A stretch of 64,000 bases of DNA from Microtetraspora malaysiensis. GTDB lineage: Bacteria > Actinomycetota > Actinomycetes > Streptosporangiales > Streptosporangiaceae. Shown here one piece after another: positions 6,101 through 25,876 of this stretch. Within the stretch, counting starts at the first letter, position 1; every line of letters begins with the position of its first letter. The notes beneath the pieces are model-generated. The model worked only from the letters and a program-made list of their open reading frames with translations, had not been told where the DNA came from and ran no database searches. The stretch lies in contig NZ_BBYJ01000017.1 of the NCBI RefSeq assembly GCF_001528665.1, positions 38,828-102,827 on the forward strand, in the 5' to 3' direction. The position numbers and the translations under genes were made by a program.

Positions 6101-8857
6101 CCGGAGCCGGACCGGATCACCGACACCAGGCGGACGGAGCTGCCGCCCGCCCACTACGTCAGGTCGGTGCTGAACGCCCAGGACGGCCGCCCCAGCCTGT
6201 ACGCCGCGATCGAGAAGCAGTTGTCCTCGATGCTGGGCGCCGCCGCGGCCCGGGAACAGAAGGCGCAACTGGAGGCCCGGCTCTCGCCCATGGCGGTGGC
6301 CGCCGCCTTCGGGCAGCTGGCCGCCCCCGGCGGGCACGAGCTGGTTTCGACGATCCGTAAGGGAGCCCCGACCCAGGGGGTGGACCGCACGGGGAACATG
6401 AGCCAGGGCGTGGACGTCCGCGTCGAGGCCCATCTGTCCGACCTTCAGGTGGTGTCCGGCCCCGTTGAAGCCGAGCTCGGCGTGGTCGATCGCGTCATGC
6501 GCACCTCGTCCATCTCGACCTCTCGCGGCCGGCTGGCCCCGATCAGCAGCTCAGTGGGCGGGAAGACGGAGTATGGCCACCTCTCGGCGAGTGTGGGAGA
6601 CCAGGCATCGGACGGTGTCTCCGACACCAGCGGCCTGCGCAATGAAGCCAGCACGTTCGAGAAGGCGAAGACCGTCACCGTCCGGGTCCGGGTGGACTAC
6701 GACCTCACGTTCCAGCACAAGATGCGGTTGGCCGACGGCACCGAGGCTCCCTTCAGGGGCCCGGTGAGGTTGCCCTCCGCCGCCTCCGGCGAGGCGTACG
6801 TGACCATGTTCGAGGCCGATTTCAAGGAGCTGCAGGCCCGGATGGAGGCCGGGGCCCAGGCGCGACCCGGATGGGATTTCACCGACGAGTCGCAGCCGAG
6901 ATCCGCGCTCAAACGACCGAACGGCCCCCACCAACAACTGGATCCCACGGATCTGCTCGGGCACGCCGCCAGGGCGAGGCAGCAGGCCAGGGACGAGGGT
7001 CACGTCGTCCGGTTCACGGTACGCGACGGGCAGAATGTCAATGCCTATCTGGCGGCCCCGGACGGCTCGCTGCACAGCGTGAAGCCGGACGGCGGGTTCG
7101 CCGAGGCGGTCGGCACGCTGCCGCCCCACGTGCTGGACGCGGCCGCGGCGGCAGACCTCGACCTCCAACAGATCTTCACGGAGCCGCAGCAGTCGGGCAC
7201 GGACCCGCAGAGGTCGGACGACCAGGCCCGCACCTTGACCGACAGGGTGAGGGACGCGCTGGCCGACCAGAACGTCCAGCCGGCGCCGCCGGCGCAGGTC
7301 TGGCCGGTGGCGGAGGCCGCCACGCCCGGCGCCGCGACACAGGGCGGCAGCGTAGGACAGAGCGCGGCCGGGGCGCCGTCGCCGGCGCTGCCGGGCACGC
7401 CGTTCGACACCCAGGCCCGGCCGGCCGGGGTGCCCGACCTGACCGTGACGGAGGTGGTCGGCCAGAACATCGCGGTCGCCGACTTCGGCGGCGGGGTCAC
7501 CGCGCTCGACTGGACCACCGACCAGGGCGTTCCGATCGCGCCGGACGCGCCGCCCGCCAACCTGGACGGCGCGGTCGTCGCCGTCACCACGCCGGCGAAC
7601 GGCGTGCAGCACGCCCGCGTCGTCGTCGGCGACCCCGGGGAGGGCCGGATCGGCTACACGTCGTACCGTTCCGGCACGCCCGAGGACCCGCACATCATCA
7701 CGATCGCCCCGCGTACGCACCCGGTCGTGGTCTCCTCGGTCCTGGTGCACGAGATCTCGCACGTCGCCGACCAGCACGCGGCGGAGGAGGCGGGCGCGCC
7801 GCAGGGGGTGATCCGGCCCTCGCTGCCGGAGCACACGCACGAGGAGGGCACCGACCACTGCCTCACCCCGCGCCTCAACGAGCACGCGCATCTTTCCCGC
7901 AAGTGGAGCGAGACCACCGATCCGGCGGCCAGGGCCCGCATCGCCGAGGCGATCGAGGCCATCGCGGACGACATCACGCAGCGCGGGCACACCCCGCCTG
8001 CGCCGCCCTGGCAGGCGGCGGATACCTCGACGGAGGCGAGACCCAAGCCGTCGATCGCGGACCTGCTCAACGGTGACGCCTCACCCGTCCCCGCCGCGCC
8101 GCAGGCGGCCCAGACCCGGCCGGTCACGTTGCCGGAGCGGGCCACCGCCGACGCGGCGGAGCGGGCCGCCGCCGACATGGGCGCGAGCGTACGGCGGCTG
8201 GGCGGCGGCCTGCTGGAGGTCACCGCGCCGGGCGGGGCGACCGTCACGGTGCGGGTGGGGTCCACCCCGGATGCGGACGCGGCGGCGGACGTCGACGTCC
8301 AGGTCCGGCCCTACCTCACGATCGGGGCCAATCAGCGGGCCGCGGCGGCGGCCGTGGCCGGAGCGGTGGCCGAGGCGTCCGGCCTGCCCACCAGCCCCAC
8401 GGTCCTGTCCGGCGACCCCAATGCAGACGCGCTGACCGTCGCCGACGCCCGTGTCCTCGCCGAGCTGGGCGAGGCCGTACGCCAGGTGGACACGGCGACG
8501 CCTCAGCAGCGCGCCGCGCGGCAGCGGGTGCTGAGCGAAATCGCCGGGCGGCTGGGGCTGCAAGCGGGCGGGGCCGAGCGGTTCCGGGGGCTCGCGCCCG
8601 ACCCGCTCCTTGACCGGATCGCCGCCCTGGTGGACGGCCCCCAGCCCTCGCGCGTACGGGAGTTCCTGGAACGGGGACGCCGCATCAGCAACATCACCGG
8701 CTGGCAGCCGCCCGAGGAGGACGACGACGAGGACAAGTGGCTTCCGCCGGACGACGGCGAGATCTGGGATCCGCTGAAGAACGACGTCTGCCGGTGCCCG
8801 GCTGAGGGGCCCTGCGTCTGCGGCCGGCGGGACGAGGCGGTCCTGGCCGAGGCATGA
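1..8857 (+). CDS. giant multidomain repeat protein, 3' part (start lies left of the window)
   Basis: The frame is open from base 2 to the stop at 8855-8857, so at least 2951 residues belong to a protein that begins outside the window. In order it shows an Asp/Pro/Lys decapeptide repeat (1-150), a first HExxH-like domain (about 950-1400, motif HEITD at 1133-1147), a Lys/Glu/Ala coiled coil (about 1510-1815), six loosely similar Ser/Gly-rich beta modules (near 2390, 3070, 3990, 4580, 5720 and 6505), a second, intact HEISH domain (7748-7762), and an acidic tail with a CxC-type cysteine cluster (about 8790-8825). Size, modular repeats, a metalloprotease-like motif and two small downstream genes recall polymorphic-toxin or giant secreted proteins of actinomycetes, but no named family was recognised. 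Function is inference only. It could equally be a structural surface protein. Confidence 0.85.
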   Translation, partial: DKTEPDIKPDDKTEPDGKPDDKTEPDIKPDDKTEPDNKPDDRTEPDNEARTDDEAKTDTDTAPGEATPTKLAQEEASRHLARSREAVFQAVLNGHPNAVLLPDGGLIVPLHGADVVVPPAAVARVINEVGRRSTQVEEDEALQAEAAALLNEQLAADTAPEDTYAADLASGQPVGLRANAALDYALNRLAPGAVLLADGGHLVSDGSGHYVITPRMLLAVRSVLEAAAVNGQDAAALRSRALLVMSQAMAVSQETSPAPEPVTSRPGTVTSRPIDGTRFVPDGRPNQRLTADEVSAEVEKLLASKFMIDEVESWAWSRSEETLVVHTRDHGTQRFRFVVGGLDSRLMAETHVNREGGDQIIHLAPHMAPDQIARVTLHEITDTVRDLSRPEPGVIRKTLFRRSRRQNKLDGCVPARLNEHAWLVHEWQNATSPGERLSIQVDLDGVARDLREHGQTPPPAPWGVTPPVRQAHAPAVADAALAALRGLVEDPAGVRTELAKLAEPHLAELGRVVEDLTRAEEELKKQKESHEDTARKAEEAANAAKDKAGEIAAMRDRGKEARKANQEKEEAQNRAKQARHLRIAEAYAKASERAEAARKAYVQVAGLVRLVATSSNPQETSLATSRLNSLLADASTRHDEYLNSVKTALPPEVSLPSALPTGNLAHLTPLTDAINKVLAENGSPRRFTPRKLEHILRADFRKVVSPDGAILRIGTGRTAVELKIRLSLSDMVQIINPEIVASEIMLGVMPQGGRSTRTSEAGSGGLTVPIGPGLIAPALPEGSIRAALEAMAAAGLGGSLSFGRSWSRGPGAADFALGGAVEDNRGESLLFDAAATWTVSVRTPRQNTWQHVATIDSGAPGDAPSQRIWVSHAYTVGPPANTETIHPSKASGQLPEHFANGLTGLDQLADDVIGRLHEGLGRVRSRTGVDALHERETRIGRITRQQILTMITDELPGRLREATDPDHGMTRVITDRRGRPVATVTIKTTVQKESAVLIGQASRDHWQERLRVGNSNATGSESFNGSLSASLNALPIPVLNDMIGGLPVPDGYNDVDVSAGGGRGVSRSQSSFVNGNAIHPSVQRYTGHTQGYQLTLKHEVTIVLADGRVLKTEGTGEGLFRMPETDAYRYGLPVDAEALLKLPNGKPRRDRQGNQILRGDPEGSRPPGRKKELPTWLRPPKLGHRGMAATNQTATDLDLMRGAGPALVQRLSGVDEVRKQVLEKLADLGLVPKFENGVPQYSRLPLQRAGQMANLREVLEQLSPERLETGYDQAAQDGIPIALTRDGFGRSSRTYTLLVRLEQDHDAATYLGRTDTEAVVNLDIGSDTAGRGSGRNWSGSVDVPYKTSDGPHKGEDGGTRSHERDKGGNYGRSTGSSVGGTVNRVTLVESGGEVALFDVPHKLAVDIIVGDRVVDQASADGSARLVFATDLLPVDTPKQPHKVGRLSEEVLSRATLLHMDTTGMLERVRQVLPRSMRRDSAAYHHFAAFSNVRNLIAHPEWRNSPYFTGVGVRPQGALPTEASLTIEGSFGEASLLGVADLVVGDINFTMGSAGVNWGQSSGRSGGSTNGISNTEGHDTVHHGGSGGHTGSRGRSRSHGQLDIWGREQLVIETGKQYIFRGTVDFTLEGNESVPDFTELGGSAKATPHNASLNGRPVVYSLPEYDALTFYTEGKLDLPLSQVADAVERFRNGSLTLDRTLATSLLQKYLVELKQARDAGQNVSFADEHTADSLLPALIKVSGLEQVDIDPKGLAEQERLDRALSEAADITRQLRQVRLAPEYEGTVGFGAVESFAVTDGTKPVTVRDAVHTAIDEAAPGAIDSSPVMRRSIDIDFAGDRVRGHVNEMLSPRGYVKTYEALADPSSGRAELVTVRAKLVPVSDSAELVGRTYDAGLIQQDYLYREVSDSGSYSGSQSFRVSGSEDESGEGADGGVSTDRGRSYEAASKEQVARLQRIAQFGGVDRVQQRYQLVIEVERTPVRTGPVRSPVRRGLDRAHRVLHRIGGDGRSTTTFDATLVRRIPTGMTRPVNDNTPEPDRITDTRRTELPPAHYVRSVLNAQDGRPSLYAAIEKQLSSMLGAAAAREQKAQLEARLSPMAVAAAFGQLAAPGGHELVSTIRKGAPTQGVDRTGNMSQGVDVRVEAHLSDLQVVSGPVEAELGVVDRVMRTSSISTSRGRLAPISSSVGGKTEYGHLSASVGDQASDGVSDTSGLRNEASTFEKAKTVTVRVRVDYDLTFQHKMRLADGTEAPFRGPVRLPSAASGEAYVTMFEADFKELQARMEAGAQARPGWDFTDESQPRSALKRPNGPHQQLDPTDLLGHAARARQQARDEGHVVRFTVRDGQNVNAYLAAPDGSLHSVKPDGGFAEAVGTLPPHVLDAAAAADLDLQQIFTEPQQSGTDPQRSDDQARTLTDRVRDALADQNVQPAPPAQVWPVAEAATPGAATQGGSVGQSAAGAPSPALPGTPFDTQARPAGVPDLTVTEVVGQNIAVADFGGGVTALDWTTDQGVPIAPDAPPANLDGAVVAVTTPANGVQHARVVVGDPGEGRIGYTSYRSGTPEDPHIITIAPRTHPVVVSSVLVHEISHVADQHAAEEAGAPQGVIRPSLPEHTHEEGTDHCLTPRLNEHAHLSRKWSETTDPAARARIAEAIEAIADDITQRGHTPPAPPWQAADTSTEARPKPSIADLLNGDASPVPAAPQAAQTRPVTLPERATADAAERAAADMGASVRRLGGGLLEVTAPGGATVTVRVGSTPDADAAADVDVQVRPYLTIGANQRAAAAAVAGAVAEASGLPTSPTVLSGDPNADALTVADARVLAELGEAVRQVDTATPQQRAARQRVLSEIAGRLGLQAGGAERFRGLAPDPLLDRIAALVDGPQPSRVREFLERGRRISNITGWQPPEEDDDEDKWLPPDDGEIWDPLKNDVCRCPAEGPCVCGRRDEAVLAEA

Positions 8858-10043: not shown

Positions 10044-12896
10044 CTAACGGTCGAGCAGGACCGCGACGGCGGTGGCGGTCTCGGGATGCCGGGCCAGCAA
10101 CGCGCCCGCCTCCCCGGGGTCGCCGCCGTCGGCGATCTCCTGCCATCCGCCGTCGCATCCGAGCAGGGCGGCGACGGCGTCGCACGCCGCCCGGTGGCCC
10201 GCCAGCAGCTCGGCCGCCGGCCCGCCGACCGGCCCGCCGACCGGCGCGGTCCCCGGCCTCGCCTTCGCCGCGCCTGACGGCCGCCCCAGCCACGGCGGCA
10301 CGAACGTGTCCAGGGACGGCAGGGCCGCCGGGAACGTGCGGCCCGCCTCGCGTACGAGCACGGGCACCAGCTCGCCCGCCTGGTCCCGCAGCGTGGTGAT
10401 CAGCTTGGGCAGCCACGGGAGCAGGACCGCGTCCGGCAGCCGCGCGAACGCCTTGGACAGCAGCTCGACCACGAACGGCGCCAGCGCGGGAGCGGGTTCG
10501 AGCGCCTGCACGAACCCGCTCAGGTACATCGGGAACGACGGGACCACGAGAGGGTTGGCGAGCAGCCCGTCGCACCGCTCCCGCAGCTCGGCCATCGGCA
10601 GCAGGCCGAGCTGGGACCGGGCCGCCCACAGCAGCGCCACCTTGGCGGGCGCCTCAGGGTGTGACTGCAGCACCGCGAGTTCGAGCTGGGCGCGGTCGCA
10701 GCCCAGGGCCAGCGCGAGGCTCTCCATGCTGAACAGGAAGCCGAGCATCGCGGCCACCTGGCGTACGCCGGTCTCCTCGTCCACGAAGGCGGTCGGCAGC
10801 AGGGTGCAGTAATGCGCGTACCCGGCGGTGACGAACGCCTCGCACCACTCCGGCAGCGCCGGCTCCGTGGCGCGATAGTAGGCGAGCAGGCGGCGGATCC
10901 GGCGGAGCACCTCGGGGGCGTCGTCCACCGTGCGCTCGGCGGACAGCAGCTCGACCGCACGCGCCCCCAGCTCGGCGGCGAACCGGCCGCCGCCCAGGTA
11001 CAGGACGGCGTCCTCCACGGCCTCGAGCGCGACGGCCGCGGTCGCCTTGGGATCCCACACCATACGGCGGAGCCGCTGTTCGAGCGCCTGCTCGACGGTG
11101 ATGGCCTCGTAGCCCAGCTCGATGATCGACCGCTGGTGGCGGCCGATCGCGAGGTCCCAGCTCTCCTGGATGGACCGCTCGCCCAGCCGTCGCTCGCCCA
11201 TGATGGGACGCACCGCGTCCTCCGGCAGCAGGCGGCGCAGGATCCACAGCAGGTCCGAGCAGCCGGTGAGCTCCGGGTTCGCGGTGAGGTCGAGCAGCGC
11301 CCGCTGGATGGTGCGCTTCTCCAGGTCCACGCCGAGGGGCGCGAGGCGGTCGTACACGTCGCGGGCCAGCGGCGGCAGGGCCTCGTACCCCACCTGGCCG
11401 ATCCGGTCGCCGCCGAGGAGGATCTCGCACAGGTGGCGGACGTCGCGGCGGCCGGGCACCACGTCCTTCTCGATGCAGGTGACGGCCGCGTCCTGGAAGT
11501 CGTACGGCGTGGGCCTGGCCCGGTTGCGCATCCCGGCGAGCAGGACGGACGTCTCGAAGACGGCGATGGCGTCCGCGGTGCTGGCGAGGTAGCCGTTGCG
11601 GCGGGCCAGCCGGACGATGTCCACGCACCAGCCGAGCAGCTCGGCCTCGTCGAGGCCGTCCAGTGCCGGAGGGCTCGACAGGAAGCCGGACAGCCGATCG
11701 GCGACCGGCGCCGCCGGCGTCGAGGGCGGCGGCAGCGCGGGGCGCTTGGCCCGCTTCGCGGCCCCCTTCTGGCCGTCCAGCCGGAACGGCGTGTCACGGA
11801 AGCGGGTCACCGCCTTGCTCCAGGTGGCGGCGGCGATCGACACCGAGCCGGAGGCGAGGCCGAACTGCGCCTCGATCGCGGAGTGGCTGGACGGGATCAG
11901 CCCGTACAGCCAGCGCGTCCCGGTCCGGGGGCTGATCTCGTACGGCGCGTCCGACGCCAGCCCGAACTGCTCGACCCGGCTCGCGGCGTGGTAGGCGCCG
12001 CACACGTACAGGCAGTCGGCCGGGTCGGCGCCGGACGCGGCGAGGTGCTCGCGCATCCGGGTCCACATGTAGCGCTCGCGCTCCTCGTCGCGCGACACCC
12101 GCTCGTCCTCCGACGGCCGCAGCCGCCGGAACAGGCTGCCGATCAGCACCATGACCTGGCGATAGGCGTCGTAGTCCGCGCCGGTGAGCGGCTGCTCGAC
12201 GTACTGGTCCCACCACTCGGACCAGTGCCGCACCTTGCCGTGGTGCAGCAGGTGCGCCTCCAGCTCGGCGAAACGCGGGCGCAGGTCACCGATCTCGATG
12301 CCGACGGCGTCGCCGTGCAGAGCCGCCTCCTCGGCGCGTTCCGCGACGTCGGCGTCGGCGTCGCCGTCGGACGGCGCGGGCCGAGCGGACTCGGCGGGCT
12401 CGGCCGGCAGCCACTGGAAGACGTGGTCGGTCGAGCGGTCCACCAGCACCAGCTCGACGCCCGGCGTGTCCAGCGCGTACGCGATGGCCTGGTACTCGGC
12501 GGACGCCTCCGTGATGGGGGCGACGACGCTCAGCGGCCCCACGCCGGGCGGGAAGCCGTCGAGGTCGGACGCGAAGGCCTGCAACGCCACGGGCAGGCGG
12601 CAGTTGCGCAGCTCGTCGAGCAGCGGCCGCAGGTCCTCGCACAGCTCCAGGTAGACGACCTTGGGCTGCTTCTCGCGCAGGCGGCGCACCATGGCCAGGG
12701 CCGAGGCCGGCGAGTGGTGGCACACCGGGAAGATCTCCAGCTCCTCGGCCAGCGCCCGGTCGACGTCGTCCACGATGCCCGACAGGATCCCCGCCAGCGC
12801 GTCGGACGCGTCCGCGGCGGTCCCGGTTGTGGGGGCGAAGGTCCTGGCGGCGTCGAGGAGCTGCCCGCGGAGCGCGTCGAAGGTGTCCGGAGTCAT
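10044..12896 (-). CDS. DUF5682-like protein, last gene of the SWIM-MoxR-VWA cluster
   Basis: Encodes 950 residues. The N-terminal region (about 55-130) carries PVCHHSPASALAMV and VVYLELCEDL, the His-His-Ser-Pro plus strand pattern of the DUF5682 family (a ChaN/TraB-like fold is likely). The rest is mostly helical, including AERAEEAALHGDAVGIE-type segments and a long alpha-solenoid-like C-terminus. No signal peptide or membrane segment is evident, so it is cytoplasmic. It follows the MoxR gene by 49 nt with GGAGATTCC before its ATG and is the fifth gene of the leftward operon. DUF5682 genes are known neighbours of MoxR and VWA genes. Their biochemical role is not established. Confidence 0.75.
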   Translation of the reverse strand: MTPDTFDALRGQLLDAARTFAPTTGTAADASDALAGILSGIVDDVDRALAEELEIFPVCHHSPASALAMVRRLREKQPKVVYLELCEDLRPLLDELRNCRLPVALQAFASDLDGFPPGVGPLSVVAPITEASAEYQAIAYALDTPGVELVLVDRSTDHVFQWLPAEPAESARPAPSDGDADADVAERAEEAALHGDAVGIEIGDLRPRFAELEAHLLHHGKVRHWSEWWDQYVEQPLTGADYDAYRQVMVLIGSLFRRLRPSEDERVSRDEERERYMWTRMREHLAASGADPADCLYVCGAYHAASRVEQFGLASDAPYEISPRTGTRWLYGLIPSSHSAIEAQFGLASGSVSIAAATWSKAVTRFRDTPFRLDGQKGAAKRAKRPALPPPSTPAAPVADRLSGFLSSPPALDGLDEAELLGWCVDIVRLARRNGYLASTADAIAVFETSVLLAGMRNRARPTPYDFQDAAVTCIEKDVVPGRRDVRHLCEILLGGDRIGQVGYEALPPLARDVYDRLAPLGVDLEKRTIQRALLDLTANPELTGCSDLLWILRRLLPEDAVRPIMGERRLGERSIQESWDLAIGRHQRSIIELGYEAITVEQALEQRLRRMVWDPKATAAVALEAVEDAVLYLGGGRFAAELGARAVELLSAERTVDDAPEVLRRIRRLLAYYRATEPALPEWCEAFVTAGYAHYCTLLPTAFVDEETGVRQVAAMLGFLFSMESLALALGCDRAQLELAVLQSHPEAPAKVALLWAARSQLGLLPMAELRERCDGLLANPLVVPSFPMYLSGFVQALEPAPALAPFVVELLSKAFARLPDAVLLPWLPKLITTLRDQAGELVPVLVREAGRTFPAALPSLDTFVPPWLGRPSGAAKARPGTAPVGGPVGGPAAELLAGHRAACDAVAALLGCDGGWQEIADGGDPGEAGALLARHPETATAVAVLLDR

Positions 12897-12945
12897 GGAA
12901 TCTCCTTGAGCGTGGAGCCCCCCGGCCTCGGCCGTGGGAAGGGGG

Positions 12946-14061
12946 TCACGAGAGCGTCGCGATGGCCTCGCGGCCGCCTTCGAGGAACTCCTGCCACTCC
13001 CCGCCGTCCTGCTTGCCGCGCGGCTCGACGACGCCGTGCCAGTACTTGTTCAGGATGGCCAGGTCCTCGGGGTTGCGGCGGGCGAGCGACCCCACGAGCG
13101 AGCCGGCGAGCGTCTGCGCCCGCAGCGTGCGGTCGCCGAAGAAGTGGCTGTGCAGGATGGCGTCCTCCAGCACGCCGATCTGCTCGGCGGTGGACAGCGC
13201 CGACTCCAGCCTCTCGTCGTCGCTGGTCGCCGAGGCGGCGGCGGCGCGCAGGTCGGCGAAGCTCTGCAGCAGGATGTCCAGCAGCGTGGGCGGCAGGTCC
13301 AGGTCGATGTGGTGCCGGCGGAGCAGCTCGGTGGTGCGGAACCGCACGATCTCCGCCTCGCTGCGCCGGCTGGTCACCACCGGGATGCGGACGAAGTTGA
13401 ACCGCCGCTTCAGGGCCGAGGAGAGGTCGTTCACGCCGCGGTCCCGGCTGTTGGCCGTGGCGATGATCGAGAAGCCGGGCTTGGCGAACACGATGTTGTC
13501 GTCGTCCAGCTCGGGGATCGACACGTACTTCTCGGAGAGGATCGAGATCAGCGCGTCCTGCACGTCGCTGGTCGACCGGGTCAGCTCCTCGAAGCGCCCG
13601 ACCACGCCCTGCTCCATCGCCGTCATGATCGGCGACGGGATCATCGACTCGCGGGACTGGCCCTTGGCGATCACCATCGAGACGTTCCACGAGTACTTGA
13701 TGTGGTCCTCGGTGGTGCCCGCGGTGCCCTGCACGACGAGGGTCGAGTTGCGGCAGATCGCCGCGGAGAGCAGCTCGGCGAGCCAGCTCTTCCCGGTGCC
13801 CGGGTCGCCGATCAGCAGCAGCCCCCGGTCGGACGCCAGGGTCACGATGCTGCGTTCGACGAAGCTGCGGTCGCCGAACCACTTCTGGGAGATCTCACGG
13901 TCGAGCCCGTCCGAGCGCTCGGACCCGAGCACGAACAGCCGCACCATGCGCGGGCTCAGCCGCCACGAGAACGGCTTGGGGCCGTCGTCGATCGACTCCA
14001 GCCAGTCGAGCTCTTCTGCGTACTTGACCTCGGCGGGGGCACGCAACATGTCGTCGGTCAT
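12946..14061 (-). CDS. MoxR-type AAA+ ATPase
   Basis: Encodes 371 residues. The Walker A motif GDPGTGKS lies at 85-92, a Walker B-like GRFEELTR follows, then the sensor-1 segment ATANSRDRGV and an arginine-rich stretch SSALKRRFNF. MoxR ATPases are chaperone-like remodelers that act with VWA proteins, often in metal insertion or complex assembly. The VWA gene sits directly upstream (9-nt gap), so the two products probably work as a pair. Walker B reads FEE rather than the usual hydrophobic-DE, a common MoxR variant. Cytoplasmic; same operon as the flanking genes. Confidence 0.93.
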   Translation of the reverse strand: MTDDMLRAPAEVKYAEELDWLESIDDGPKPFSWRLSPRMVRLFVLGSERSDGLDREISQKWFGDRSFVERSIVTLASDRGLLLIGDPGTGKSWLAELLSAAICRNSTLVVQGTAGTTEDHIKYSWNVSMVIAKGQSRESMIPSPIMTAMEQGVVGRFEELTRSTSDVQDALISILSEKYVSIPELDDDNIVFAKPGFSIIATANSRDRGVNDLSSALKRRFNFVRIPVVTSRRSEAEIVRFRTTELLRRHHIDLDLPPTLLDILLQSFADLRAAAASATSDDERLESALSTAEQIGVLEDAILHSHFFGDRTLRAQTLAGSLVGSLARRNPEDLAILNKYWHGVVEPRGKQDGGEWQEFLEGGREAIATLS

Positions 14062-14070
14062 CGCGGTCTC

Positions 14071-15441
14071 CTAGGTGAGGAAGTTCTTGAGCTCGAACAC
14101 GAGTTTGCGGATGTGGCCCGAGATCACGGGCGTGCCCAGGTCCTTGAACCGCTGGCGGAACCACGGGTCCACGCTCTGGTGGCCGGAGCTGTTCACCGAA
14201 CCGACCGGGATGAACCGCACGCCCGACTGGTGCACGGCCCGGATGCCGTCGAACAGTGGCTGGGACCGGTCGAACTCGTAGAAATCGGAGATCCACACCA
14301 TCGCCGTGTTGCGCGGATCGGCGATCTTCTGCCGGGCCAGGGCCATCGCGACGGGGCCGTCGTTGCCGCCGCCGAGGTTCGTCCGCAGCAGCACCTCGAA
14401 CGGGTCGTGCACCCACGGGGTCAGGTCGAGCGCCCGGGTGTCGAACGCGATCAGGTGCACGTCCACCTTGGGAAGCCCGGCGAAGATGGACGCCAGGATG
14501 GTGCAGTTCACCATCGAGTCGACCATCGAGCCCGACTGGTCGACGACCACGATCAGCCGGGCCGGCGTGGTCCGCCTGGCGGTCTGCCGGTAGTACAGCC
14601 GGTCCACATAGAGCCGCTGGTCGTCCGCGTTCCAGTTGGTGAGGTTCTTCCAGATCGTGCGCTCGATGTCGAGGTTGCGGAACACCCGCTTCGGCGGCAC
14701 GGACCTGTCGATGGAGCCGACGGTCGTCTTCTCGACCTGGGTGCGCAGCACCTCGGCGACCTCGTCCACGTACCTGCGGATCAACGCCTTGGCGTTGGCC
14801 AGCGCGACACCGGACAGGTTGGCCTTGTCCCGGAGGAGCTGCTCGATGAGCGACATGCTCGGCGTGAGCCGCCGCGCGAGAGCCGGGTCGGCCAGCACCT
14901 CGCGCAGCCGCATCCGGCGGACCAGGTCGCCCTCCAGGCCGGCCAGTACGCCGGCCAGCTCCTCGCCGCCCGGCCGGGAGCGCAGTTGTCCCGGCTCGCA
15001 GCCGAGCCCGCGCTGGAACCAGGCGGCGTCCTGCTGCCAGTCGGCGAGCTGGGTGGCGGTCACGCTGCCCGTCCCGGTCGAGAACACGTTGAGCAGCAGC
15101 TTCGACACCAGGGCGGCCCGGCGGACCTCGTCCGCGCCGACCCGCTCGGGGGCGGGCGCGGCGGTGTCGTCCGGCTCCGCCATCAGGTTCCGCAGCTCAT
15201 CGCCCAGCTCGGGGAAGCGCTGCACGAGGTTGTCCACCGACACGGAGGGGTCGAGCAGCGCGGGCGGCAGCCCGAGATCTCCGGCGACGGCGACGCTCGC
15301 CGCCTCAAGCGCCGGCTGCTCCTCCGGGTCGAACAGCCGGGCCAGCAGCCGCCAGTAGAGCACCTGCCGCCGGTTCTCGTCGGCGTTGACCTCCGGCGAG
15401 GCGGGCGTCTGGGCCGGGGGCGTCGTCACGGGGTCGCTCAT
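14071..15441 (-). CDS. VWA-domain protein with altered MIDAS, partner of MoxR
   Basis: Encodes 456 residues. The start ATG overlaps the upstream stop (ATGA), which sets the start although the frame stays open further upstream. The N-terminal 270 residues are helical. The VWA domain begins around residue 292 with VVVDQSGSM (D301, S303, S305 of the metal-ion-dependent adhesion site). The loop that normally supplies a threonine reads LGGGND, with Asn at 360, and WISDFYE supplies D386. VWA proteins of this type bind clients by Mg2+-dependent contacts and hand them to MoxR ATPases. Cytoplasmic, no export signal. The Thr-to-Asn change may weaken metal binding. Confidence 0.9.
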   Translation of the reverse strand: MSDPVTTPPAQTPASPEVNADENRRQVLYWRLLARLFDPEEQPALEAASVAVAGDLGLPPALLDPSVSVDNLVQRFPELGDELRNLMAEPDDTAAPAPERVGADEVRRAALVSKLLLNVFSTGTGSVTATQLADWQQDAAWFQRGLGCEPGQLRSRPGGEELAGVLAGLEGDLVRRMRLREVLADPALARRLTPSMSLIEQLLRDKANLSGVALANAKALIRRYVDEVAEVLRTQVEKTTVGSIDRSVPPKRVFRNLDIERTIWKNLTNWNADDQRLYVDRLYYRQTARRTTPARLIVVVDQSGSMVDSMVNCTILASIFAGLPKVDVHLIAFDTRALDLTPWVHDPFEVLLRTNLGGGNDGPVAMALARQKIADPRNTAMVWISDFYEFDRSQPLFDGIRAVHQSGVRFIPVGSVNSSGHQSVDPWFRQRFKDLGTPVISGHIRKLVFELKNFLT

Positions 15442-16847
15442 CGCCGCAGCAGCCGTCCGGCCCGCTCGCGCAGCACGGCGACCGAGTCGCCGGCCTTGGC
15501 CTCCGCCTTCATGACCTTCGGATCTGTCGGGCCGAGCGCCCAGTCTCCGTTGTGGGCGGTGACCGGCTTGCGCTTGACCATCGCCTGTACGGCGAGGGGC
15601 TGCAGCGCCCACCTGCCGCCGTCCCAGCGGACCAGGCCGACGCACGCCGTGGAGGCGGCCACCAGCTCGGGCGTGAGCGGTCCGCAGGACGGCAGCCGCT
15701 CGACGTCGACCGCCAGCGCCTGCCCGCCGAGGTCGAACGTGACCTCGCCGCCGTCGGTCGTCGCCGTGTACCCCTCCACCAGCACGGGTTCGGATATCCG
15801 TACCGGATGGCGGTCGAGGGGCGGCACCGCCGGGGCGAGCGCGCCGCCGAGCAGGACGCGTGCGGTGGTGAACGGGTCGGCGGGCTCGCCCGCCTCGGCC
15901 CGGTCGTCGTGCCACACCAGGTCGCCGCTGTCGAGGAGCGGCTGGTCCGTGATGTCCAGGCTGCGGTGCTCGGCCAGCGCGCCCAGCAGCACCGGGTGCC
16001 ACTGGAGCAGCCGCCACAGGGCGGGGCCGACGATGGTGTCCACCTTCGGCGCGGCGACGCTCGCCCGCACCAGCCGGGACGTGCCGCCGCCCGCGGGCTC
16101 CAGCACGGCGTGGACCTGGATCTGCACCGCCGTGGCGTGCTCGTGGACGTCCACACCGAGGATCAGCAGCCGTCCCGACACCGTCGCCGCCGGCTGCGGG
16201 GCGCCGGCCGGGGCGCCGGGCTGCGACAGCAGCAGGGCGCGGGTCCACAGGTCCGCCCACCGCCGCGCGGGCAGCCGTTCCATCGTCGCGATAGGGCTCG
16301 ATGCCCGCAGCTCGGCCGCCAGGCCGTCGAGCAGAACCGCCGTCCTGCGCAGCTCGGGTACGGCGAGCAGCGCCTCGATCGTCTGGTCGGCCGCGGAGAC
16401 GAGGTCGTGGTCGACGCCGCGCCAGCCCGCGATGGCCAGCTCGTGCAGCCAGGACCGGCACCCGGCGAGCAGGTTGTCCGCGCCGGGGGAGGCCGCGGAC
16501 GGCGACGCCTCCCACGGACCTCTGGCCCGTCCCAGCGCGCCGTCGAGGCGACCGAGCAGGGCGTCGTGCACCGCGCCGAACAGCGCCGCCCGGCCTCCCG
16601 CCAGCACGCTCAGGTGCTCGTCGGCGACCGAACCGGCGGCGATCTTCTCGGCCGCCTCGCCCGCCCGTACGCCGAGGGGGCCGGCCGCCAGCGCGCCGGC
16701 CAGGGCGGCCAGGGCGGCGGCGCGGTCCTCGCCCAGCCGGGAGAGTCCGTGGACGAGGGCGTCGTCGAAGCCCGCGACCAGGTCGAGGGCCTCCTCGACC
16801 CCGGGGAGGGGGCCGTCGAGCAGCTCGGAAAGGTTCACAGCGAGCAT
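15438..16847 (-). CDS. uncharacterised protein of the SWIM-MoxR-VWA cluster
   Basis: Encodes 469 residues from an ATG that overlaps the SWIM gene stop (TGATG). The open frame extends further upstream, but that part is the shadow of the SWIM gene. The protein is Leu/Ala-rich and helical in its first 240 residues, then has a beta-rich half with HEHATAVQIQVHAV and a tryptophan-containing PALWRLLQWHP segment. It ends in a basic RERAGRLLRR. No known domain was recognised with confidence. A DUF5691-like family is possible because such genes occupy this place in related clusters. Stop-start overlaps on both sides show it belongs to the operon. Confidence 0.75.
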   Translation of the reverse strand: MLAVNLSELLDGPLPGVEEALDLVAGFDDALVHGLSRLGEDRAAALAALAGALAAGPLGVRAGEAAEKIAAGSVADEHLSVLAGGRAALFGAVHDALLGRLDGALGRARGPWEASPSAASPGADNLLAGCRSWLHELAIAGWRGVDHDLVSAADQTIEALLAVPELRRTAVLLDGLAAELRASSPIATMERLPARRWADLWTRALLLSQPGAPAGAPQPAATVSGRLLILGVDVHEHATAVQIQVHAVLEPAGGGTSRLVRASVAAPKVDTIVGPALWRLLQWHPVLLGALAEHRSLDITDQPLLDSGDLVWHDDRAEAGEPADPFTTARVLLGGALAPAVPPLDRHPVRISEPVLVEGYTATTDGGEVTFDLGGQALAVDVERLPSCGPLTPELVAASTACVGLVRWDGGRWALQPLAVQAMVKRKPVTAHNGDWALGPTDPKVMKAEAKAGDSVAVLRERAGRLLRR

Positions 16848-17356
16848 CAGCGGGTCGCCCCCAGGGCCGGGAACCAGTGCATCTCGGGGATGGGCGTGGT
16901 CGTGTCCGGGATCTCGAGGTAGTTCAGGTGGCGGAGGAACCGGCTGAACACCGTGGCCGCCGGCGCGCGTTCGACCTGGCCGTTCATGCTGTGCACGAGT
17001 TCGGCGCCCGTGGCGGCGTCGTCGTCGATGTCGACGCGGAGATAGCGGGCGACGCGGTCGATGCCGTACTGCAGTACCGCCTCGGTGGCGAGCAGGTGCA
17101 GGTGCTTGCACGGCGAGCTGCCTGACGGCAGGGCGCCGCACGGCCGGTTGTTGTTGGTGCTGCAGCTGTACGCGTGGGTGCCGGTGGTGAACGACGAGAC
17201 GTACACCCGCTCGATGTCCGAGCCGCTCGACACGACGCCCTGCAGCCGCCCGTCGGCCAGCTCGACGAAGGGGACCTTCGCCAGCTTGCGCGGCCGGACG
17301 GGCGGGACGACCCGCACCGTGCTCCGCCGCTCCCATGCGGAAGTCTCCGCGTTCAC
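16847..17356 (-). CDS. SWIM-type zinc-finger protein, first gene of the leftward operon
   Basis: Encodes 169 residues. I place the start at the GTG of 17356 because GGGAGG lies 9 nt upstream. A longer frame runs to 17740 but its extra part has no family-like features. The C-terminal half contains YSCSTNNNRPCG and SPCKHLHLL: three cysteines and a CxH end, close to the SWIM pattern CxC...CxH except that the first pair is spread out (C-x7-C). SWIM domains chelate zinc and bind DNA or protein, and are known neighbours of MoxR/VWA genes. This gene probably leads a five-gene transcription unit reaching 10044. Confidence 0.75.
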   Translation of the reverse strand: MNAETSAWERRSTVRVVPPVRPRKLAKVPFVELADGRLQGVVSSGSDIERVYVSSFTTGTHAYSCSTNNNRPCGALPSGSSPCKHLHLLATEAVLQYGIDRVARYLRVDIDDDAATGAELVHSMNGQVERAPAATVFSRFLRHLNYLEIPDTTTPIPEMHWFPALGATR

Positions 17357-21939: not shown

Positions 21940-23307
21940 TCAGCCGGGCACGCGGTGGGCGGCGAGATGGGCGAGGACCGCCTGGTTGGCCTCCCAGCCG
22001 TCCGGGAACTTGACCGGCTCGTTCAGCCGCACCCGCCCGGTGCTCGGGTGGGCGTCCAGAAGCTCGGGGATCCCGGCGCGGGCCACGACGACGCAGGCGT
22101 GCCGGTGGCGCGAGGTCAGCACGCACAGGCGGCCCGACTCCAGGTGGAAGGCGGTGGCGTCGCGCCGCCCGGACAGCGGGTGCAGGACGATCGTCACGTC
22201 GTACTCGCGGCCCTGCAGCCGGTTCGCGGTGTCCACGGTGACGCCGTCCGGGACCCCGGCGGCCCGGATGGCGGCCACCTGGTCGTTGTGCGCGGCGCCG
22301 ATGGCGATGCGCGCGGCGTTCACGCGATGGGAGCCGTGCTCATCGTGGGCGACCGCGCCGCGCTCCACCAGCCGGGTCGCCAGCCCGGCGCACGCCCGCA
22401 CCGCGTCGGCGTCGGTCCGGATCGTGTGGCGGCTGGGCAGCTCGTGCAGCGCCCAGCCGGTCGCCGCGGCCTCCTCAAGCGCGCGGTCCCAGGCGGCGGG
22501 GGTCCCGGTGACGGGCGATCCGGGGCCGGCGAGTTCGAGGACCCGCTCACCCGGCCCGGTGCCCGACCGGAACGGTGTAAACGGATAGAACGCCTCCGAG
22601 ACGAGCGGTGCGGCCGAGGCCGGAAGCCGCCAGGAGACGGGCAGCCGGTGGACCGGCAGGTCGTTGAGCCGCGCGGTGACGGCCACCGCGCTCTGCAGGG
22701 GATCCCAGGCGAGGCCCGCCCAGCGCTCGGTGTCCACCACGGAGAACGGGTCGAGCTGGCCGGGGTCGCCGACGAAGAGCGCCCGCTCGAACAGCGCGGC
22801 GATGGCCAGCAGCTTGTCCGAGCGCATCTGGTACGCCTCGTCGATGATCGCCCACTGCCAGGTATGGCCGGACACGTAGGCCCACTTGTCCGCGGTGGCG
22901 AGGACCACCGAGCAGGAGGCCACGTCGTCGATCTTCTTGGACGCCCGGACACCGGGGTGCCGGATCACCCGCTCGGGCACCTGGAAGCCGTCCTTGTGCA
23001 GGCGGCCGATCGTGAGCGACGGGTCGCGCGTGGCGATCTTGTCGGCCAGGTCGTCCACCTGCTCGTTGGTCTGCGCCACGATCATCAGCCGCTCGCCGGC
23101 CCCGGCCAGCTCCAACGTGGTGGCCACGACCAGGGTGGACTTGCCCGCCCCCGGCGGAGAGTCGACGATGACGCCCCGGTGCGCGCCGCCGGTGAAGTCG
23201 GCGAGGATCGCGGCGGTGGCGCGGGCCGCCGCCTCCGCCGGGCCGTCCTCCGGCCAGGGGCCGGCGGGCGCGGGGCCGAGCGGATCGGGGAAGGGGGCGA
23301 CGGTCAC
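21940..23307 (-). CDS. superfamily 1 (Dna2/UPF1-like) helicase, third gene of a nuclease-helicase trio
   Basis: Encodes 455 residues. The GTG start overlaps the upstream stop by 4 nt. Helicase motifs in order: Walker A PPGAGKST (51-58), Ia MIVAQTNEQV, II WAIIDEAYQ (D156, E157), III LFVGDPGQLDPF, IV VSWRLPASAAPLVSEAFY, V VDTANRLQGREYDVT and VI VLTSRHRHACVVVAR. This order and the FY after motif IV are those of 5'-3' SF1B enzymes such as Dna2, IGHMBP2 and UPF1. At 455 residues it holds the two RecA cores only. The barrel and nuclease seem to be supplied by the two genes upstream. Role in DNA repair or phage defence is inference. Confidence 0.88.
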   Translation of the reverse strand: MTVAPFPDPLGPAPAGPWPEDGPAEAAARATAAILADFTGGAHRGVIVDSPPGAGKSTLVVATTLELAGAGERLMIVAQTNEQVDDLADKIATRDPSLTIGRLHKDGFQVPERVIRHPGVRASKKIDDVASCSVVLATADKWAYVSGHTWQWAIIDEAYQMRSDKLLAIAALFERALFVGDPGQLDPFSVVDTERWAGLAWDPLQSAVAVTARLNDLPVHRLPVSWRLPASAAPLVSEAFYPFTPFRSGTGPGERVLELAGPGSPVTGTPAAWDRALEEAAATGWALHELPSRHTIRTDADAVRACAGLATRLVERGAVAHDEHGSHRVNAARIAIGAAHNDQVAAIRAAGVPDGVTVDTANRLQGREYDVTIVLHPLSGRRDATAFHLESGRLCVLTSRHRHACVVVARAGIPELLDAHPSTGRVRLNEPVKFPDGWEANQAVLAHLAAHRVPG

Positions 23308-24749
23308 GACCAGTCCTCCTTGGCGTCCTCGTCGGTCGGCACGTACGCGGCGGGCGGCCCGCCGTGGGTCCAGGGCGTCTCCTCCGCGGCGGGGAAGCCG
23401 GGCCGGATCCGCCCGCCGAGGTCCAGCTCGGTGAAGCAGACCGCGTCGCCGACGCCCGGCACGCCCGCGCCCTTGGCCAGCTGGTCGTTCAGCTGCACCA
23501 CGACGAGGTCGCCGTCCAGCTCGATGACCTCGCCCGACTGCCTGCGGCGGTGCGCGGAGAACACCTTCTTGCCCGGCGCGAGCCGTACCGGGTCGGCGGT
23601 GCGGACGGTGACCAGCGGTCGCGACACCGGCTTCTTCCCCCCGGGCAGCAGGATCGTCCGCTCCCGGTCCACGTGGACCACCTCGCCGGCGAACGCCTTG
23701 CCGGTCGCGCGATGCTCGGCCATCACCAGCGGGTCGTCGTAGGCGCGCTGCGCGTCGTACGACTGCCGCGCCGACTCCATGTCCCACAGCCGGGCCGCGG
23801 CGGATCCGGCCTGGTCGCGGCGGCCCCGGGGAGGGCCGCCCTCGGCCACGCGGGCGACCTCGCGGGTGTACCGGTCCCGGTCGGCGGCCCACCGATCGCC
23901 GACGCTCGCCGCCTCGGGCCGGCCGCGCAACAGCTCGACGGCCTGCCACATGAGCCGCCAGGTCGGCTCCAACTGGCCGCGCAGGGCTTCGCGGACCGGC
24001 TCCGGCGAACCGGACGCGTCGTACGCGTCGATCGCCGGCCGCAGCACCCGCGCGTCGAAGCCCGGATCGGTGTCCGGACCGGCCGGAGGCCACCGGACGG
24101 GGTCCTCCGCGGCGGCCGCCGCCTCCTGCCCGGTGTGGCCGGGCGGCGGGCAGATCCACGCCAGCAGCGTGGCCAGGTTCGCGTCCTCCATCGGGCTCTG
24201 CCCGGTCGCCCAGTGCAGGGAGAGCGCCTCGGTCATCGGGACCAGCGCCGACGACCCGGCGAACTCGGTCCGCTCATACAGGAAGGTCAGCCACTGGCCG
24301 AGGACGGGAACGGCCGGATCGACGGGGTAGGGGCCGTCGGCGCTGCGGAACCGGGTGGAGCGGCCCAGCAGCCGGACGAACTCGACCGCGCCCCGTCCGG
24401 GCACGATGACCTGCGGCGCGTCCAGATAGCGCTCGCGCTCGTTCTTCCCCGGGACCGTCTCGGTCGCCGCGGCCCGGCCCTCGATGTACGGAAGCATGAT
24501 CCGGGCCAGCTCGGCCATGAAGGCGAACCGCAGGTCGCGGTTGCGCGGTTGCGGGACGACCAGCAGGTGGGGGCGGGCCGGGTGGCTGCCCACCATCGCG
24601 CCCAGCGGCGCGGCGGCCTCACCCGCGAGCCTGAGCGGGATGAAGACCAGGGGGTCGGCCGCCAGGTGCAGGTGCCGGACGGTCGCGACCGGCTGCGCCC
24701 GGCCTTCGCGGACGGCCAGCGCCCGGGCGTACGACGTCACGACACTCAC
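23304..24749 (-). CDS. middle protein of the nuclease-helicase trio with a C-terminal beta-barrel-like region
   Basis: Encodes 481 residues. The GTG start at 24749 overlaps the nuclease stop, and the end overlaps the helicase start. The N-terminal 330 residues are of unknown fold (ELARIMLPYIEG, GQWLTFLYERTEF). From about 340 on, beta-strand segments with alternating turns (GKAFAGEVVHVDRERTI, PLVTVRTADPV, GEVIELDGDLVVVQLN) look like the 1B/OB-type barrel that precedes or inserts into Dna2/UPF1-like helicases. It may therefore clamp DNA or bridge nuclease and helicase. No known family was recognised for the whole protein. Confidence 0.8.
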   Translation of the reverse strand: MSVVTSYARALAVREGRAQPVATVRHLHLAADPLVFIPLRLAGEAAAPLGAMVGSHPARPHLLVVPQPRNRDLRFAFMAELARIMLPYIEGRAAATETVPGKNERERYLDAPQVIVPGRGAVEFVRLLGRSTRFRSADGPYPVDPAVPVLGQWLTFLYERTEFAGSSALVPMTEALSLHWATGQSPMEDANLATLLAWICPPPGHTGQEAAAAAEDPVRWPPAGPDTDPGFDARVLRPAIDAYDASGSPEPVREALRGQLEPTWRLMWQAVELLRGRPEAASVGDRWAADRDRYTREVARVAEGGPPRGRRDQAGSAAARLWDMESARQSYDAQRAYDDPLVMAEHRATGKAFAGEVVHVDRERTILLPGGKKPVSRPLVTVRTADPVRLAPGKKVFSAHRRRQSGEVIELDGDLVVVQLNDQLAKGAGVPGVGDAVCFTELDLGGRIRPGFPAAEETPWTHGGPPAAYVPTDEDAKEDWS

Positions 24750-25876
24750 GCGACCACCGCCTCGGCCGCGGTGTGCGCGCGATAGATCGCGTGGACGTGG
24801 CGGAGCTGCTCGGCTATCTCGTCGTGTTCCGACGCGGTGCGGCGGTCGTCCGCGGCGAGATCGAGCACCGCGTCCACCGAGTCGAGGCCGCCGAGATCGT
24901 CGCGGGTGACCCGGCCGAGCACCTCCAGCGAGCCGCACTCGCGGGCGTCGGAGCGGCAGAAGTACGCCATCTCGCAGGTGGACAGGCACTCGGGCGCGTA
25001 CCTGGCCTCGGCCGCGCGGACCGCCCGGGCCAGCTCGGCGGGCGACTGCTCCAGGCTGAACGTGAGGTCGGGCGGCAGCCGGTCGAGGATCCGGTCGATG
25101 CGGGTGAGCCGTGACAGCTGCCGCCTGAGCGCGGCGAGCTGCAGGCGCACGTCGAGCAGGGTCGCGGTGGGGTGGTTGGCGAAGTCTTTGGGGCAGACCA
25201 GCACGACCTCGTGCGACACCAGCCCGGGGTCGATGCCCTCGGCCGCGAACATCGCCTTCAACGCGTACACGTAGACCGCGGAGAGCCGGGAGGCGGCGGC
25301 GACCTGCGCCGAGTCGGCGGCGCCGTCGATGACCGCGAACGACTTGATCTCGACGATGTGGAACCGGCTCCCGGCCTGGACGGCGAGGACGGCCGGATCC
25401 AGGTAGACCTCGTGGCCCGCGACCGGCAGCGTGAACAGCGGGTGGTCGACCAGCGTGCCGTCGCCGGAGCCGTCTCGGACCGCGCTTTCGGCGGCCTGAC
25501 GCAGCTCCTTGCGGGTGCGGGCGTGCCGCAGCTCGCGGGTGGCCTGGCCGCCCGCCTGCGGGATGTCGAGGTACGCGATCGCGGGGATCGGCAGGCCGAG
25601 CGCCTCGCGCAGCAGCCGCAGCAGGTGCGCGCAGCGGTCGGCCTTCACCAGCTCCTCGAAGGACCTCGCCCGGGCCAGGGCGAACGGCGACTGCCCGAAG
25701 GGAGCGGGGTGGCCGAGGTGGACGGCGGTGTCCCGCTTGCTGATCCCGGCCGCGTCGAGCACCGCTCGCCGGTCGCACCCGGGGTTGCCGGCCAGGGCGG
25801 CGACGGTGCGGGCGTTGTGGTCGACGGGCGCGGCGCCGCCTCGCAGGGCGTCGAGCCGCTCGGTGGACGTGCTCAC
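24746..25876 (-). CDS. PD-(D/E)XK nuclease with a cysteine cluster (Cas4/AddB/Dna2-like), first gene of the trio
   Basis: Encodes 376 residues. Nuclease core: YLDPAVLAV (motif II Asp), VEIKS (motif III) and a following Gln/Tyr helix (SAQVAAASRLSAVYVYAL). After it comes ECLSTCEMAYFC with one more Cys six residues on (C-x3-C-x5-C-x6-C), and an earlier Cys in KADRCAHLL. A Cys before the core plus a C-terminal cluster is the layout that holds a 4Fe-4S cluster in Cas4, AddB and Dna2. Predicted role: DNA end processing, coupled to the helicase encoded two genes on. The three genes overlap by 4 nt each, so stoichiometric synthesis is likely. Confidence 0.83.
   Translation of the reverse strand: MSTSTERLDALRGGAAPVDHNARTVAALAGNPGCDRRAVLDAAGISKRDTAVHLGHPAPFGQSPFALARARSFEELVKADRCAHLLRLLREALGLPIPAIAYLDIPQAGGQATRELRHARTRKELRQAAESAVRDGSGDGTLVDHPLFTLPVAGHEVYLDPAVLAVQAGSRFHIVEIKSFAVIDGAADSAQVAAASRLSAVYVYALKAMFAAEGIDPGLVSHEVVLVCPKDFANHPTATLLDVRLQLAALRRQLSRLTRIDRILDRLPPDLTFSLEQSPAELARAVRAAEARYAPECLSTCEMAYFCRSDARECGSLEVLGRVTRDDLGGLDSVDAVLDLAADDRRTASEHDEIAEQLRHVHAIYRAHTAAEAVVA

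Follow-up and report, generated by a model that had tools for sequence, protein, structure and literature searches.

Does a row of three overlapping genes in an actinobacterial genome encode, as separate proteins, the nuclease, barrel and helicase that Dna2 carries on one chain, and what might such a set be used for? The row lies in a 64,000-nucleotide (nt) stretch of Microtetraspora malaysiensis DNA (assembly GCF_001528665.1, contig NZ_BBYJ01000017.1, positions 38,828–102,827 of the forward strand), referred to here as the window, and an initial annotation of this DNA had suggested that its genes divide the nuclease, barrel and helicase of Dna2 among them. In our analysis the three genes, designated A, B and C in the order of transcription, are best explained, at a probability of roughly 0.62, as a form of the bacterial Dna2-like (Bad/TM0106-COG2251) helicase-nucleases that is split into three subunits, most likely processing DNA ends, flaps or forks. 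Each gene starts with GTG, and the three overlapping genes and two GTGA joints described initially proved exact in their coordinates. Lengths are in amino acids (aa), and the joints were placed from the coordinates of the open reading frames (ORFs).

Gene A, 24746–25876, minus strand: 376 aa; predicted iron-sulfur (Fe-S)-type PD-(D/E)XK nuclease
Gene B, 23304–24749, minus strand: 481 aa; central protein with a predicted RNase H/PolB-exonuclease-like domain, stalk and beta-barrel
Gene C, 21940–23307, minus strand: 455 aa; UPF1-like superfamily 1B (SF1B) helicase core, judged by sequence
A/B overlap, 24746–24749, minus strand: GTGA
B/C overlap, 23304–23307, minus strand: GTGA

Nuclease and helicase are not fused in one polypeptide, being carried by three ORFs with 4-nt overlaps; A-B-C was therefore filed as a split variant and not as Dna2. 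The locus is single-copy in the 8.8-Mb genome, with one full DNA match (five others were short and weak) and one protein match each for A and B.

Gene A: a predicted iron-staple nuclease

Residue conservation was scored over 120 aligned rows for A and 119 for B, with 11 loci duplicated (108 distinct loci for B). By their conservation, C34, C297, C301 and C307 are the likely Fe-S ligands of A, and the iron-staple layout, with one Cys before the nuclease core and three after it, was recovered in the A family, as were the catalytic residues of the PD-(D/E)XK fold.

A Cys34, 25775–25777, minus strand: likely first Fe-S ligand; Cys in 117/120 rows, with 3 gaps
A Cys297/Cys301/Cys307, 24956–24988, minus strand: C-x3-C-x5-C, likely Fe-S ligands; each Cys in 120/120 rows
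A 160–162, 25391–25399, minus strand: PD motif, DPA in the window and usually EPD; Asp162 in 108/120 rows
A 176–178, 25343–25351, minus strand: E-I-K of the nuclease motif; E176 in 106/120 and K178 in 118/120 rows

Position 160 is Glu in 116 of the 120 rows and Asp in the window. The initial annotation had recognized the nuclease from a VEIKS motif (residues 175–179) and a Cys cluster; motif and cluster both stood, and only Cys314, a Cys in no more than 49/120 rows, had to be struck from its ligands. A loss of the Fe-S ligands among homologues was looked for and none was seen across the 120 rows. The observed C-x3-C-x5-C spacing after the core compares with the C-x2-C-x5-C that we take to be the arrangement in Dna2.

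The AlphaFold2 model of A reached a mean predicted local distance difference test (pLDDT) score of 92.8 from an alignment of 57 sequences. VIA-align 2, run on the Foldseek list, matched this model to Cas4 (7mi5; Z 9.8, 194 aligned, 4.9 Å), EXO5 (7lw8; Z 9.1), AddB (4cei; Z 7.2) and Dna2 (Z 6.2–6.4, the higher value with 5eaw), and the top six of Foldseek itself included ACE1, MGME1, RecE and Dna2 (E 0.013–0.034). On these best matches, A is predicted to be an iron-staple PD-(D/E)XK nuclease of the Cas4/EXO5/AddB/Dna2-type fold. The Pfam family PDDEXK_1 was touched weakly by 7 of the 57 aligned members (best E 0.0048), the A protein of the window not being among them. Cas4 and EXO5, the top fold matches, are Fe-S nucleases from which A differs in being tied to B and usually to C and in having no Pfam match at E ≤ 1; Cas4 proper was considered and set aside. 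In the PDB, the profile of A matched two designed proteins and that of B had one weak match; all were disregarded.

Gene B: a predicted exonuclease-like domain, stalk and barrel

The AlphaFold2 model of B (mean pLDDT 90.9, alignment of 59 sequences) was compared with known structures by VIA-align, and three regions were distinguished.

B 31–246, 24012–24659, minus strand: predicted RNase H/PolB-exonuclease-like fold, from the alignment to KOD polymerase; domain end estimated from the model helices
B 310–348, 23706–23822, minus strand: stalk-like helices, within the 310–450 match to IGHMBP2 4b3f (Z 9.4)
B 350–443, 23421–23702, minus strand: predicted UPF1/Dna2-type beta-barrel, from the matches to IGHMBP2 4b3g and Dna2 5eaw

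Residues 31–331 aligned with region 135–347 of KOD polymerase 7omg (Z 9.9, 182 aligned, 3.7 Å), which we take to be its exonuclease domain; the match was read as likeness of fold alone, and a link to polymerases was discarded. Although a PolB exonuclease was thus the top fold match, no match of this RNase H-like domain to PF13482 was obtained. The D-x-E of motif I was not found in B, where Pro38 is present in 116/119 rows and E44 in 118/119, and the N-terminal domain is therefore probably non-catalytic.

Further along the chain, B 310–450 aligned with IGHMBP2 4b3f (122 aligned, 4.2 Å at the Z given above) and B 342–443 with IGHMBP2 4b3g (Z 9.3, 86 aligned, 2.1 Å), while Dna2 gave Z 7.4–7.8, the highest with 5eaw, where B 329–443 lay on Dna2 460–567. 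Foldseek ranked Dna2 5ean first for B (E 6.8e-3, with a low TM-score). The model hence assigns to B a stalk and a beta-barrel, located between nuclease and helicase, in agreement with the barrel-like end first suspected from the sequence. The three-part description given by the initial annotation held, having missed the N-terminal domain of B and a frequent fourth gene, Z, described below.

Gene C: a UPF1-like helicase

C reached the Pfam cut-offs of AAA_11, AAA_12 (just), AAA_19 and AAA_30. Its best sequence match in the PDB was Dna2, with C 48–200 on residues 647–807 of the 5eax chain sequence (E 1.3e-5), and IGHMBP2 (SMUBP-2), NAM7 and UPF1 were also among the matches. Both nucleotide-binding motifs were conserved over 40 rows.

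C Walker A region, 23137–23157, minus strand: PPGAGKS; G53, G55 and K56 in 40/40 rows
C Walker B/motif II, 22831–22842, minus strand: DEAY; D156, E157 and A158 in 40/40 rows, Y159 in 38/40

From these families, motifs and matches C is, as first annotated, an SF1B helicase core, of the UPF1-like kind by its sequence. The stretch before Walker A is too short for a barrel. No UvrD family occurred among the 12 Pfam rows of C, and RecBCD, AddAB and AdnAB were set aside since C matches AAA_11, AAA_12 and AAA_30 and is not a UvrD-type SF1A helicase. Against PADLOC-DB 2.0.0, the best stretches of C covered about 40–50 residues of helicase models and nothing longer; the known defence systems of that database were set aside, A and B having no match there and C these short stretches alone.

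Comparison with Dna2 and with fused bacterial enzymes

The three proteins tile Dna2 in order, A on residues ~31–411, the C-terminal part of B on ~440–572 and C on ~647–807 (the last in chain-sequence numbering). Like Dna2 (5ean, 5eaw, 5eax), A-B-C combines an Fe-S PD-(D/E)XK nuclease, a stalk and barrel and a UPF1-like SF1B helicase; Dna2, for example the human enzyme, is one chain, whereas A-B-C is three and B has the additional RNase H/PolB-exonuclease-like domain. The Fe-S ligands, the fold of A, the stalk and barrel of B and the match of C to Dna2 all agree with the division into nuclease, barrel and helicase. IGHMBP2, Senataxin and Sen1 have a stalk and barrel like that of B, and IGHMBP2, NAM7 and UPF1 a helicase core like C. 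In the UPF1-like helicases IGHMBP2, Senataxin and Sen1 a single chain holds both barrel and core, and these enzymes are not known to have a nuclease. The Dna2 structure paper supports this description for IGHMBP2, and gives the order in Dna2 as nuclease, stalk/beta-barrel and helicase.

The fused TM0106-type proteins (TIGR03491, COG2251) are collinear with A-B-C, possessing a Cas4-like nuclease, an RNase H-like domain and an SF1 helicase. They differ in being single chains (1128–1267 aa in three of those read) and in keeping, in the RNase H domain, the D-x-E (invariant in 13 rows) that is missing from B. Given the extra N-terminal domain of B, these fused enzymes resemble A-B-C in architecture more closely than eukaryotic Dna2 does. 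In PMC3985635, COG2251 is described as having a DUF83 nuclease and, frequently, AAA domains in tandem, and its RNase H family as strongly linked to the cluster of PolB exonucleases, which agrees with the top fold match of B. The TIGR03491 model itself gave no match to A, B or C at E ≤ 1. Profile comparison gave weak but collinear alignments with the fused proteins: A fell on their nuclease part at P 3.6e-4, the first Cys in register, and B on the middle part at P 0.0023 and 0.015. A first hhalign comparison of A with TM0106 had returned a weak, partial stretch (E 0.028), improved upon by the wider profile; in global mode the alignment of B with the fused proteins gave P 0.9 and hence no support.

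The two forms also seldom occur together among the closer relatives. In 73 genomes of the family to which the window belongs (counted from labels), A was present in 31, a fused TIGR03491 protein above the cut-off in 17 and both in none (Fisher P 1.5e-5); the corresponding numbers for 120 relatives were 34, 28 and 1 (P 5.6e-4). Neither value is corrected for phylogeny, and the family-level exclusion may therefore reflect few events.

Bad, the DNA2-like enzyme of Geobacillus, likewise shares with A-B-C an Fe-S nuclease and an SF1B helicase with a central conserved domain; it is a single chain as opposed to three (PMC7430649). According to that paper, bacterial DNA2-like enzymes are rare and of unknown role, the central domain is completely unknown in structure and function, the gene for Bad adjoins a type III-like methylase and its authors suggest a new class of restriction enzyme. 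No description of the split A-B-C trio was found in the open-licence PMC literature.

Gene order, a fourth gene and co-occurrence

Gene starts in the relatives were taken from a simple gene caller, so that overlap counts and neighbour maps are approximate. In a set of 40 loci, A and B were present in all 40 and C in 39, always in the order A-B-C; L054 has no C nearby, and C is in two pieces in L092. Among a further set of 80 loci, 63 had contiguous A-B-C, 55 of them as Z-A-B-C and eight without Z directly before A. The other 17 comprised four loci at contig ends (L094, L133, L152, L155), four in which B and C are separated by an insert (L131, L136, L141, L147) and nine without a nearby C. The retention of this order across both sets indicated that the arrangement is more than chance. 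Overlaps of 4 nt were counted in 46/61 Z/A pairs, 31/77 A/B pairs and 19/64 B/C pairs, with 36 other overlaps at the B/C joint. Two distant relatives (L068 and L069, 24–34% identity; the same genomes as L240 and L241 below) keep the order and both 4-nt overlaps, while the C of the closest relative, L070, is 95% identical to that of the window.

Frequent separation of the genes, which would speak against a joint function, was seldom encountered. All 34 of the 120 related genomes that have A also have B, the single case of B without A being a 71-residue piece in a fragmentary assembly (G424), and a homologue of C was present in 12/12 genomes searched, including those of all ten loci without a nearby C (the nine above and L054). 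A relative of B is encoded in at least 543 of the 597 matched stretches among the matches listed, many of them from actinobacteria. Distances for A, B and C correlate at 0.94–0.95 over 107 rows, duplicates included, a correlation that co-inheritance alone would also produce.

Gene Z encodes a protein of ~255 aa with an N-terminal coiled-coil-like stretch followed by a conserved domain. It lies directly upstream of A in 61/80 loci (for example L093:5149–5916) and in 20/41 loci of another set. Matches to Z occurred in 28/120 genomes, and A was missing from only two of these, the fragmentary assemblies G424 and G431; Z was absent from the genome of the window. Its PDB matches were to rabenosyn-5, and beyond the coiled coil no match was obtained. 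In the fetched loci of fused TM0106 proteins, 0/1938 ORFs resembled Z at E ≤ 1, whereas the same model recovered 81 genes in A-B-C loci as a positive control.

Proposed function and alternative explanations

Gene order, conservation, the predicted folds of A and B and the family of C were obtained directly; from the analogy with Dna2 we infer one complex that would thread DNA and cut it. B would be the hub through which A is docked to C. A single-stranded 5' end would pass through A and then the barrel to C, which, as a 5'-to-3' helicase core, would translocate while A cuts the strand. Its most likely task would be to process DNA ends, flaps or forks as part of chromosome maintenance, with certain lineages using it for defence; this is the weakest step of the proposal. 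Consistent with a repair role are the relations to DNA nucleases and to Dna2, the ordinary neighbours shared, as in vertical descent, by most loci of Actinomadura, Streptosporangium and family f3 (probably Streptomyces), and the SbcD-SbcC genes (Mre11-Rad50 family) that adjoin Z-A-B-C in 3/108 distinct loci, in two arrangements. An extension that we consider improbable is that Z-A-B-C, at times with SbcD-SbcC, would be a bacterial counterpart of Mre11-Rad50/Dna2 resection, with a dead exonuclease-like subunit that would serve as clamp or sensor in place of the active RNase H domain found in fused relatives. In the split form, which recurs in many actinobacteria, a separate gene encodes each of nuclease, linker and motor; genetic dissection of the parts is therefore possible, and what Dna2-like enzymes do in bacteria becomes directly testable. 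B, moreover, suggests that the middle part of such enzymes has an RNase H/PolB-exonuclease-like fold.

Several results weigh against a split Dna2-like enzyme. The profile searches that the initial annotation had proposed for each protein succeeded for C, whereas A and B had no match at E ≤ 1 in Pfam, NCBIfam, PHROGs or PADLOC; in the PDB, too, profile searching yielded no relative for either. Foldseek returned no match at E ≤ 0.001 for the models of A or B, and VIA-align scores of Z < 8 can reflect no more than an arrangement shared by many proteins. The barrel of B is matched at Z 7–8 by F1-ATPases and riboflavin synthases as well; since such generic barrels reach these values, the case for a UPF1/Dna2-type barrel turns on the top Z scores and on the inclusion of the stalk. 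The nine loci of the 80-locus set without a nearby C, all of the Micromonospora group, have A-B with C encoded elsewhere, and in one genome (G204) C lies 37 kb from A-B among genes read as ordinary. The exclusion between A and TIGR03491 disappeared in 396 phylum-wide genomes (A in 16, TIGR03491 in 48, both in 3; P 0.43), where two of the three co-carriers (G165 and G252) have short TIGR03491-like frames, that of G252 directly following A-B-C. Lastly, the A protein of the window is without the catalytic Asp162 (Ala) and without Gln198 (Leu), the latter kept in 108/120 rows. The Ala162 and Leu198 substitutions make nuclease activity doubtful there, though Asp160 could stand in. That the complex of the window is now a helicase or DNA-binding machine only, its nuclease having degenerated, is in our view rather unlikely. 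Both substitutions are common to the window and L070, and Asp162 is missing in 11/120 rows (7 distinct loci, the rest being duplicates); yet E176, K178 and the four Cys residues are kept, position 160 is acidic, the frames are intact and the C proteins of the two loci remain nearly identical.

A strong rival to DNA-end processing, which we consider less likely than not, is that A-B-C forms an undescribed anti-phage or anti-plasmid defence: the split enzyme would break down incoming foreign DNA, and Z would be its sensor or adaptor. Restriction genes were seen near several loci, namely HsdM of type I (L141), a type I R protein (L137), a type II methylase (L108), a type III restriction protein (L140) and, near L241, an N6/N4 methylase with a Res protein having an endonuclease domain; a GmrSD_N protein stands between B and C in L136, with a homologue in L141, and RhuM in the same place in L131. 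These belong to nineteen neighbour proteins picked by eye, with no control rate, and the ordinary neighbours of most loci in the genera named above resemble those of inherited chromosomal genes. The patchy distribution of A (34/120 relatives), the restriction-enzyme suggestion in PMC7430649 and the matches of A and B to two Streptomyces plasmid records also favour defence (a third matched record, of 11.85 Mb, is chromosome-sized). No PADLOC system was matched, A and B matched nothing in the phage collection, and the nearest genes in the window are a GH18 chitinase (Pfam) and ORFs read as secreted and sigma-factor-like proteins. On balance we lean to DNA-end processing over defence. It is very improbable that three unrelated activities merely share an operon: C can be encoded elsewhere, but A and B co-occur, the three tile Dna2 in order and diverge in parallel, and C is too short for a barrel of its own while B has one. 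Slighter still are the chances of an RNA-directed complex. UPF1-like helicases and their barrels also act on RNA, and IGHMBP2 gives the barrel of B its highest score, Senataxin and Sen1 being further matches; the top matches of A are DNA nucleases, with RNA-linked chains low in the list, and the best PDB sequence match of C is Dna2.

Neighbouring genes and other features

In L240 (4559–6253), a 564-aa RNase_H_2/TIGR03491-like protein overlaps the end of C, giving a row A-B-C-D. In L241 (2625–9921), A-B-C faces a fusion of a UvrD helicase with PDDEXK_1, close to the methylase and Res-type protein mentioned above. The genes inserted between B and C in L131, L136 and L141 are of the RhuM or GmrSD_N type. 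Upstream of Z in L133, L136, L137, L141 and L097 lies a divergent SMC/RecF-like ATPase of ~800 aa (a shorter call in L097), beside which a small partner gene was observed in four of the five loci.

Promoter and terminator scans found no signal. Elsewhere in the window, a 2861-aa ORF at 272–8857 scored highly as coding sequence with the simple gene caller and matched no Pfam family at E ≤ 0.001. A row of minus-strand genes at 10044–17356 includes two further proteins without a Pfam match at that threshold, together with DUF5682, an AAA_5 ATPase and a CoxE-type VWA protein, and has a cassette-like look.

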